Below are positions 19,421-41,209 of a stretch of 64,000 bases of DNA, piece after piece. Origin of the DNA: Sporodiniella umbellata (lineage: Eukaryota > Mucoromycota > Mucoromycetes > Mucorales > Rhizopodaceae). The stretch covers positions 496,001 through 560,000 of the forward strand of contig JAIXMR010000001.1 of the NCBI GenBank assembly GCA_025677835.1, given 5' to 3'. The notes under the pieces are model-generated. The model worked only from the letters and a program-made list of their open reading frames with translations, was not told the DNA's origin and did no database searches. Each line of letters opens with the position of its first letter. Position 1 is the first letter of the stretch. Made by a program: the position numbers and the translations under genes.

Positions 19421-22257
19421 ATGCATTTGATACCAAGAGAATTAGACAAGTTGCTTTTGCACCAAGGTAATTGAATTTTTCATCTTGTTTTGTGTTTTAG
19501 GTATCAGGAAATGTTAAAGCTCTGTTATAGTTGGTTTTCTTGCTCAAAAACGCCTTGCTCGTGGTATCAAACTTAACCGAATAGAAGCTACAGCGTTGAT
19601 TGCATCTCAGCTTTTAGAGTTGATGCGCGATGGCATTTATTCTGTTGCTCAATTAATGGATATTGGAAAACAAATGCTGGGTAGATGTCACGTTCTTCCT
19701 GACGTTAACTATACCCTTCACGAAGTTCAGGTCGAAGGCACTTTCCCAGACGGTACCTATCTAGTTACAGTGCACGACCCTATCTGTACTGAGCAAGGGA
19801 ACCTTGAGATTGCTCTTTACGGTAGCTTCTTACCTATTCCTACAGCCGACAAATTCCCTGAGACCGAGATGCTCGACCCTCTTCAAGCGCCTGGAGCCAT
19901 GATCATCAAACCAGGCAAAATTGAGCTAAATGCTGGTCGAAGAAAACTAGCCTTGTCTGTGACAAACTTTGGTGACCGCCCAATTCAAGTGGGATCCCAT
20001 TTTCACTTTATTGAATCCAACGCTGCTTTACATTTTAACCGAGCCCTTTCTTATGGTATGCGACTGGATATCCCATCTGGATCAGCTGTACGCTTCGAAC
20101 CAGGTGACTTCAAAACGGTGACTTTAGTAGAAATCGGCGGCAATAAGATCATCACCGGGGGTAACAATTTAGCCTCAGGCCCATTAGATCTGATGCGTCT
20201 CCCTGAGATTATCAACAACCTTTCAATCCAAGGATTTAAGCATGACGTGAACGCACCTCTCCTGCCCGCGCCTACCGTCACAGTGCTCGATAAAGAGTAC
20301 TATGCCGATCATTTTGGTCCGACCACAGGCGACTTGATACGTTTGGGTGATACGGAACTCTGGGCGCGCGTCGAAAAAGATTATACTGTTTACGGAGATG
20401 AGTGTAAGTTTGGCGGAGGTAAAGTCTTGCGTGAGGGAATGGGTCAAGCTACAGGAAAACTGGATCATGAAATTCTCGATCTTGTCATCACCAATGCTCT
20501 GATAATCGATTATACTGGTATTTACAAGGCTGACATCGGTATCAAAAAAGGTATTATCGTCGGTATAGGAAAAGCGGGTAATCCGGATGTTATGGATGGT
20601 GTCACACCAGGAATGATTGTAGGAGCTGGTACAGAAGCCTTGGCAGGCGAAGGCAAAATTTTTACAGCTGGTGCAATCGACTCCCATGTCCACTATATCT
20701 GCCCTCAGATATGTTATGAGGTAAGTAGTGTGGGTTATTATCTAGTTTTCTCACAAATGTCTACCAAAAAAAAAAAAAAAAAAAAGGCATTGGCTAGCGG
20801 AATCACCACTTTGATTGGAGGTGGTACGGGTCCCAATACAGGCACTAATGCAACCACTTGTACTCCAGGAAATCACCATATTGAGATGATGATGAAAGCC
20901 ACTGACGACATTCCTTTGAACTTTGGTTTTACCGGTAAAGGAAACAGCGCAAATCAAGAAGAGTTAGTAGAACATATCAAAGCTGGCTGTCTTGGTCTGA
21001 AAATTCATGAAGACTGGGGCGCTACACCAGCTGCCATTGATGCCTGTTTAAGTGTATGCGATCAATACGACGTACAGGTAAGTTTTAAACAATGAAGGAG
21101 GGAAAGGAATCAATGATTATATAAATCTGTATGTATCATTCACCAGTACATAGACTACTATTCATACGGATACTTTAAATGAAGCTGGTTTTGTTGAATC
21201 TACTGTAGATGCTTTTAAAGGAAGAGCTATACATACTTATCATAGTGAAGGTGCAGGAGGAGGACATGCACCCGACAGTAAGTTCAAGCTGATCTTTTGT
21301 TTATTCCTATTTTAACAAAAAAAAAAAACTCCTAGTTATCACTGTCTGTAGTTTGCCTAATGTATTACCTTCTTCAACAAACCCTACACGACCCTTCACA
21401 TCCAACACGCTTGATGAGCATGTCGATATGCTGATGGTTTGTCATCACTTGTCAAAAACAATTCCTGAGGATGTAGCATTTGCTGAAAGCCGAATTCGTG
21501 CTGAGACAATAGCTGCCGAAGATGTTCTTTTAGATATAGGTGCGATCAGTATGATCAGCTCAGACTCACAGGCAATGGGTCGGGTAGGGGAAGTAGTTCT
21601 TCGTACATGGAAAACAGCTAGTAAGATGAGACAACAAAGAGGCAAGTTGAGTGAAGACGAAGGTGTAGAGGGTGATAACTTTCGAATTAGAAGATATATT
21701 GCTAAATACACAATCAACGTGTAAGTACAAAAGAAAGTACTGTAAGAAAAAAAAAAACAAAAATTTGACAAACTTTTGTTATTAGTGCCCTGGCTCATGG
21801 GGTAGGCCATCTGGTAGGTTCTATTGAGGTTGGCAAGGTGGCAGATTTAGTCTGCTTTACACCTGATTATTTTGGATCTAAGCCAGAGATGATTTTAAAG
21901 GCCGGTATCATTGTTTGGAGCCAAATAGGGGATGCAAACGGATCTATTCCAACTACGCAGCCTATTGTATCCAGGCCAATGTACGGGGCTAATCCTTCTA
22001 GCTTATCTTTTTCGTGTTTCTTGTTTGTATCTCAGTTATCTGTGGATGAGGGCATTATACAGAAATACAATGTGCGTAAGCGTGTAGAACCTGTCAAAGG
22101 ATGTCGTACGGTGAGCAAGAAAGATATGAAACTAAACGATACAATGCCTAAGATCACAGTGGATCCTGAAACCTATAAGGTTACTGCTGATGGAGAAGAA
22201 TGTGTTTGTGACCCCGTTTCTTCTTTGCCTTTAACACAATCCATATACCTATTCTAA
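19421..22257 (+). CDS. ure1: Urease, single-chain eukaryotic type
   Basis: Hydrolyses urea to ammonia and carbamate with a dinuclear nickel centre, in the cytosol. Six exons: 19421-19466, 19531-20720, 20787-21077, 21154-21277, 21336-21720 and 21786-22257. They give 835 residues, close to plant ureases (about 840). The gamma, beta and alpha parts are fused in order. Active-site features are all present: HVHYICPQ (two nickel His), GLKIHEDWG (carbamylated Lys), [24 protein letters not shown], flap MVCHHLS with its Cys and His, and SSDSQAMGR with the nickel Asp. The start is [15 protein letters not shown], typical of the gamma subunit. Intron 2 (20721-20786, 66 bp) ends in A20 directly before the acceptor and is a stop-free multiple of three; no urease has an insert there, so it must be spliced. 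Activity needs UreD/F/G accessory proteins, not seen here. Confidence 0.95.
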
Positions 22258-40464: not shown

Positions 40465-41209
40465 ATGAAGTAAAAATATAATCCATCCATCCAAAAAAGT
40501 TGTACTTATAGCAATCGATTCTACCCACTACTAATACACAGGCTTGAGATTTGTTCCTTCTCTGGTCAAAAGATCTATCCTGCCAAGGGTAAGACCTACG
40601 TCCGTATTGACTCCAGGTAAATTCTTATAATCACCACTTCTATTGAATCCTAACTTTTCCTCCTTGCCTGCTTTTCTTATTTATTTTTCTTATATAGAGT
40701 AAGTCGTCAACACAGTTGAAAAACAGAAAAAAAAAAATATTATAGTCTAATGAACAACTGAATTGACTTTGACATTGTTATAGACTTTCAAGTTCATCAA
40801 CGGAAAGACCGAATCTTACTTCCTTCAACGTTTGAACCCCCGTAAGATCAGATGGACTGCCATCTACCGTCGTTTGAACAAGAAGGGTATGACTGAAGAA
40901 GTTCAAAAGAAGCGCTCTCGTCGTACCGTCAAGCACGAACGTGCTGTCGTTGGTGCTTCTTGGGATGCTATTCGTGCCAAGCGTAACCAAAAGCCCGATG
41001 CCCGTGCTGCCGCTCGTCAAGCTGCCATCTCTAAGAGCAAGGACGCCAAGAAGGCTGCTGCTGCTGCTAAGAAGGCCAATGCTCCTGCTGTAAGTTATAC
41101 AAAAAATGGCGATAATCAGTAGCTTATTGTTATTTGATAGGGTCAATCCAAGGTTAGCAAGCAACAAGCTAAGGGTTTTGCCCCTAAGGCTGCTGCCACT
41201 TCTCGTTAA
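40465..41209 (+). CDS. RPL24: 60S ribosomal protein L24 (eL24)
   Basis: Component of the large ribosomal subunit. Proposed exons: 40465-40469 (ATGAA), 40542-40616, 40698 (one nucleotide), 40784-41089 and 41141-41209, giving 151 residues (yeast 155). The start reads MKLEICSFSGQKIYPAKGK; then YVRIDSR, TFKFINGKTESYFLQRLNPR, KIRWTAIYRR, KKRSRRTVKHERAVVGAS and the tail SKVSKQQAKGFAPKAAATSR, all typical of eL24. Exon 2 ends in phase 2 (AG) and the next long exon begins with a full codon (ACT), so one base is missing. An A at 40698 sits between TTTCTTATATAG and GTAAGT and supplies it, making AGA (Arg); yeast has Lys there. The first two bases of that codon come from exon 2. Confidence 0.9.

Follow-up and report, generated by a model that had tools for sequence, protein, structure and literature searches.

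Two neighboring coding exons of a gene in Sporodiniella umbellata (Mucorales, Rhizopodaceae) cannot be joined directly without losing the reading frame, and the question arises how this gene is spliced to give a full-length product. The gene is located on the forward strand of the 64,000 nt stretch of DNA that we analysed (hereafter the window). The L24e family (Pfam PF01246) matches above cut-off on both exons, which identifies the gene as RPL24 (eL24). With the L24e domain in frame, the spliced product (residues 1–151) can be aligned end to end with a fungal eL24 chain of known structure (1–155). We read the parts of the gene as follows:

40465..40469, + strand: coding exon 1 (ATGAA, 5 nt)
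40470..40541, + strand: intron 1 (GTAAAA...ACACAG, 72 nt)
40542..40616, + strand: exon 2, ending GACTCC-AG in phase 2
40617..40697, + strand: putative intron A (GTAAAT...TATATAG, 81 nt), with a CTAAC branch-like site (A at 40653)
40698..40698, + strand: putative one-nucleotide exon A, third base of the Arg27 codon AGA; the same base is found in the paralogs C133 and C90
40699..40783, + strand: putative intron B (GTAAGT...TTATAG, 85 nt), phase 0, with a CTAAT branch-like site
40784..41089, + strand: exon 3, starting ACT TTC AAG on a codon boundary
41090..41140, + strand: last intron (GTAAGT...GATAG, 51 nt)
41141..41209, + strand: exon 4 with the stop codon

The first coding exon (40465–40469) comprises five bases only, and many database models from early-diverging fungi start incorrectly at this point.

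The gap between exon 2 and exon 3

Exon 2 and exon 3 are separated by 167 nt (40617–40783). Exon 2 ends with AG at 40616 and the next exon starts on a codon boundary at 40784, as originally predicted; joining the two directly leads to loss of the frame and to stops. Within the gap an A at 40698 is flanked by TTTTTCTTATATAG (40684–40697) on its 5’ side and by GTAAGT (40699–40704) on its 3’ side, so that one base stands between a complete 3’ and a complete 5’ splice site (TATATAG-A-GTAAGT). When this base is included, a 151-residue eL24 with the sequence ...VRIDSRTFKF... is obtained. The A between acceptor and donor, the CTAAC of the first half-intron and the restoration of a full-length family member had all been part of the original prediction and were confirmed; the second half additionally contains CTAAT. 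It had also been stated that yeast eL24 has Lys where Arg stands here; of the five eL24 chains aligned, all three from fungi have Lys at this position (DNK, DSK, DSK).

In the whole window the pattern YAG-N-GTRNGT was detected at three sites on the + strand (15178, 20726 and 40695) and at one site on the - strand (6841). Around site 15178 the DNA is AT-rich and shows no clear gene. Site 20726 lies in the apparent intron of a urease-like gene, just past the donor at a distance of six bases; at neither of these two + strand sites was a micro-exon seen by eye. The urease-like open frame (19518–21095 and beyond, + strand) was recognised by eye as well. With an apparent 66-nt intron (20721–20786) its frame stays open.

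Paralogs and alternative splice products

Three RPL24 genes are present in the genome (26 Mb, 198 contigs), namely the copy in the window (C1) and the copies C133 and C90. All three have the same phase gap, with exon 2 ending AG/GTA and exon 3 following TAG/ACTTTCAA, and in all three copies a frameshift and stops result when the single base is left out. The central block reads TAG/A/GTAAGT in C1 and C133 and TAG/A/GTACGT in C90. In the latter it was read from the sequence and by pattern; the MAFFT alignment of the gaps misplaces C90, which has long A runs and differing ends. Gap lengths are 167, 143 and 188 nt in C1, C133 and C90, and the A divides them into 81+85, 69+73 and 114+73 nt. The half introns across the three copies (69–114 and 73–85 nt) are about the size of the gene’s other introns (50–87 nt).

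Pairwise identity over aligned positions amounts to 55–63% in the gap versus 89–91% in exon 3. With dN of 0.012–0.014 and dS of 0.40–0.69, the paralogs are under strong purifying selection. The point of the comparison is that the block stayed and its surroundings changed. We estimated its occurrence by chance from 20,000 dinucleotide shuffles per paralogous gap: YAG-N-GTRNGT at least 30 nt from both ends was found in 0.08%, 0.24% and 0.10% of the shuffles of the three gaps, and TAG-A-GTANGT in 0.010%, 0.015% and 0.020%, values that cannot be multiplied as independent because the three copies are related. Branch-like sites in introns A and B are CTAAC and CTAAT in C1, CTAAT in both introns of C133, and weaker in C90. 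Intron B is weak in C90, with the donor GTACGT and TTAAT as sole branch-like site, and its acceptor is weak in C133, where 6 pyrimidines are found in the last 15 bases. The deposited Sporodiniella umbellata protein P0001, the best protein hit and a model that is possibly homology-driven, is identical to the product predicted for C133 with the extra base.

For a systematic view of the splicing alternatives (ALTERNATIVES) we enumerated all products obtainable between the first base of exon 2 and position 150 of exon 3 by removing either a single intron (GT-AG or GC-AG) or two GT-AG introns in succession, with a minimum intron length of 30 nt. The three genes gave 107, 114 and 181 different products that were in frame and free of stops, and 20 of these occurred in every gene. 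Among these 20, only the product with the one-base exon keeps every residue of exon 2 and exon 3; the other 19 lose at least 6. In each gene it is reached by two routes, corresponding to either order of intron removal. The one-nucleotide internal exon proposed originally is therefore supported, being the sole full-residue solution enumerated and having flanking sites that are kept in three diverged paralogs.

We also considered a stwintron and rejected it, the donors and acceptors of both introns being uninterrupted. The [D1,2] version, in which the internal intron would end at 40699, consumes G40616, gives the wrong frame and does not appear among the common enumerated solutions.

The eL24 junction in public protein models

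Conservation of the single base among homologs can be followed on the DNA level in the three paralogs; outside the Sporodiniella umbellata genome it was read indirectly from protein models, as scans of viral and prokaryote contigs for DNA of other Mucorales yielded no relative. We classified the best 120 of 358 eL24 homologs, comprising 66 models from named Mucorales/Umbelopsidales, 47 from other named fungi and 7 without organism name. The junction was broken in 47 of the 66 Mucorales/Umbelopsidales models and intact in 19, but broken in none of the 47 other named fungi (Fisher p ~1e-16) and in none of the 7 models without organism name; with the models grouped into 90%-identity clusters from a capped list, broken ones are split into more entries than intact ones, and those with severe damage may have escaped the list. 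The 19 intact models are consistent with a one-base exon and with a simple intron alike.

The sister gene Rlp24 served as a control. Here the matching junction was intact in 48 of 49 models from named Mucorales/Umbelopsidales and in 71 of 71 of the rest (best 120 of 5766 homologs, again 90%-identity clusters from which badly broken models may be missing), with an intact-pattern slightly looser than that for eL24, as it also accepted A before Lys/Arg and T in its place. Since 48 of 49 models are intact, generally poor annotation is not a likely cause of the eL24 breakage. The start-of-gene junction provides no clean control, because exon 1 contributes just 5 bases of coding sequence and is frequently modelled wrongly: among the best 120 of 358, 31 of the 66 Mucorales/Umbelopsidales models do not start with MK[LT]EIC, and 34 of the 47 other fungi miss the start pattern used, some of them having truly different starts.

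The 47 broken models fall into 12 that skip VRxDSR (11 drop the whole stretch, P0021 keeps VR), 19 that change after VRxDS, 10 with a wrong-frame exon 2 and 6 that have lost all or most of exon 2. Skipping of VRxDSR by 12 of the 66 models (best 120 of 358) is what would be expected from a single intron without any micro-exon, spliced from the upstream alternative donor TAC/GTCCGT to ACT with loss of the six residues VRIDSR, and this join is in frame in all three paralogs. However, these positions are present in 5 of 5 aligned eL24 chains and in 47 of 47 models from other fungi (best 120 of 358), TAC/GTCCGT is a poor donor, and both the conserved TAG/A/GTRNGT block and the AG/GTAA donor would be unaccounted for. 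We regard this arrangement as very improbable.

The models changed after VRxDS allow a closer reading. If exon 2 has the same AG end in these species, read-through of the exon 2 donor (AG/GTAYG) would give R-Y, and read-through from the micro-exon into its donor (AG/R/GTNNGT) would give R-V. An R-V with R, S or C as the next residue was found in 8 of the 19 models (best 120 of 358; rough binomial 1e-5 for V in 8/19); GTACGT, GTAAGT and GTATGT translate into VR, VS and VC. These models come from Rhizopus stolonifer (P0009, P0023), Mucor fragilis (P0012), M. circinelloides (P0015, P0036), Absidia glauca (P0042), Rhizomucor pusillus (P0082) and Lichtheimia ornata (P0084). The other 11 carry no R-V trace and read SSA, SRY and SRL (2 each) or SSG, SRF, SRW, SRR and SSV (1 each). 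The two SRL models, P0038 (R. arrhizus) and P0080 (M. hiemalis), read DSRLSVS, as would result from joining AG directly to ACTTTC out of frame. This pattern suggests that the one-base exon is probably common to Mucorales. In Umbelopsidales breakage was found alone and the fingerprint is absent; the exon is perhaps present there as well.

Independently of the junction, the C-terminal tail SKQ[QG]AKGF is missing in 20 of the 66 Mucorales/Umbelopsidales eL24 models, e.g. in Absidia, Cunninghamella, Gongronella and Lichtheimia (P0026, P0029, P0032, P0037, P0042, P0048, P0051, P0052, P0055, P0060, P0068, P0073, P0075, P0079, P0081, P0082, P0084, P0090, P0098 and P0102), possibly a real loss in these lineages.

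Three further explanations were considered. Intron boundaries of the GT-TA or TA-AG type are not standard. One intron with such a boundary could draw the missing base from the G beside exon 2 or exon 3, which is present in all three copies and gives AGG, also an Arg codon; these Gs, however, are the end bases normal for GT-AG introns, and the conserved central block is left unaccounted for, making this solution still less probable than use of the upstream donor. We place at the same low level a direct exon join followed by a -1 slip of the ribosome after AGA. Reading AGA and then ACT would produce the same residues, but none of the three copies has an XXXYYYZ heptamer in the 27 bases surrounding the junction, and the splice block would again have no explanation. 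Least probable of all is a pseudogene or a sequencing or assembly error that dropped a base at an exon edge, which could account for one copy but not for the same gap at three separate loci with dN far below dS, nor for the failure of many other species’ eL24 models at this junction.

Splicing, origin and known one-base exons

Judged from the genomic sequence, RPL24 very probably contains two ordinary GT-AG introns around a constitutive one-base exon, A40698, which would supply the third base of the Arg27 codon. Introns A and B would be removed successively, because an acceptor complex and a donor complex cannot share one base. If intron A is removed first, AGA/GTAAGT would be left as donor; if intron B is removed first, TATATAG/AACTTTC would be left as acceptor. 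Either order would lead to the same mRNA.

Two Rlp24 genes are present in the genome, on C166 and C5. Both contain one phase-0 intron at the site of RPL24 intron B (DSK/TFRF; 54 and 47 nt), located at C166:155081-155134 and at the matching place in C5. As this position is common to RPL24 and Rlp24, intron B is likely the older of the two, and its position suggests an age beyond the split of the two families. Intron A, one base upstream and in phase 2, is likely the newcomer. It may have been gained as an additional phase-2 intron in the ancestor of Mucorales, perhaps also of Umbelopsidales; alternatively, it may be a part of intron B that became separated after a boundary base was lost. For the one-base exon of Fusarium CYP621A, the proposed scenario is that an exon lost a base and a cryptic exon made up for it (PMC12940212). 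The RPL24 gap is of double length, which speaks more for the gain of a second intron than for such a rescue, though the latter could still apply. A rather doubtful extension is that the exon arose before the split of Mucorales and Umbelopsidales, was kept through duplications in a very highly expressed gene and acts as a splicing gate: removal in two steps could set the level of eL24 output or autoregulate it, because any failure would result in a frameshift and a target for decay.

If confirmed, the exon would show the limit of exon size to be reached in an essential kind of gene with high expression, and it would explain why many public eL24 records from these fungi are broken. RPL24 in Mucorales would constitute an order-wide natural series, testable by RNA-seq, for how the spliceosome handles one base. 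Among the open-licence papers listed by our searches, none reports a one-base exon in RPL24. Within this literature no ribosomal protein gene with such an exon would have been described before, and among fungal nuclear protein-coding genes CYP621A would be the one earlier case. A micro-exon mention in PMC4651352 refers to a mapper option only.

The original prediction named Arabidopsis APC11 as the one published case, which has to be extended by VPS55, Fusarium CYP621A and snoRNA host genes of Candida. The RPL24 exon would thus add to one-base exons already known; what is notable is the gene and the apparent depth of conservation. That a ribosomal protein gene would be a notable place stands, but the exon is probably order-wide and not peculiar to Sporodiniella umbellata.

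In APC11 the single-nucleotide exon was proved by cDNA and mutant constructs (PMC4674806). Like that of RPL24 it is a constitutive, frame-essential A between two introns, and the APC11 annotation had been wrong; unlike RPL24, APC11 is a plant gene for a subunit of the anaphase-promoting complex and is not homologous. The one-base microexon of plant VPS55, supported by RNA-seq and RT-PCR, resembles the RPL24 exon in its deep conservation, its conserved GTRAGT donors and its absence from annotations, but some plant lineages have transcripts both with and without it (PMC8831610). The one-nucleotide exon of CYP621A is described by its authors as the first in a fungal gene (PMC12940212). It was likewise discovered in a fungal protein-coding gene through exon phases that could not be joined, and is kept in orthologs. 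There, however, the base is a G in a rarely expressed Fusarium P450, with support from SRA reads, whereas RPL24 is a universal ribosomal protein gene with three paralogs in a mucoralean fungus; the main text of that paper does not mention ribosomal, Rhizopus or Mucor.

Single-base exons had been reported earlier than CYP621A in snoRNA host genes of the Candida parapsilosis group, where RNA-seq shows a predominant order of removal (PMC5033589). These are also fungal spliceosomal introns one base apart, but the base has no role in a reading frame because the clusters are non-coding. Stwintrons (spliceosomal twin introns) share with RPL24 two consecutive splicing reactions inside one apparent intron; there, one of the two introns lies within a splice element of its partner, whereas in RPL24 all elements are complete and one base would stay in the mRNA. 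Finally, the fungal mitochondrial introns rnl-576/577 are also separated by one A as exon, but they are group II introns that do not depend on the spliceosome (PMC12308204).
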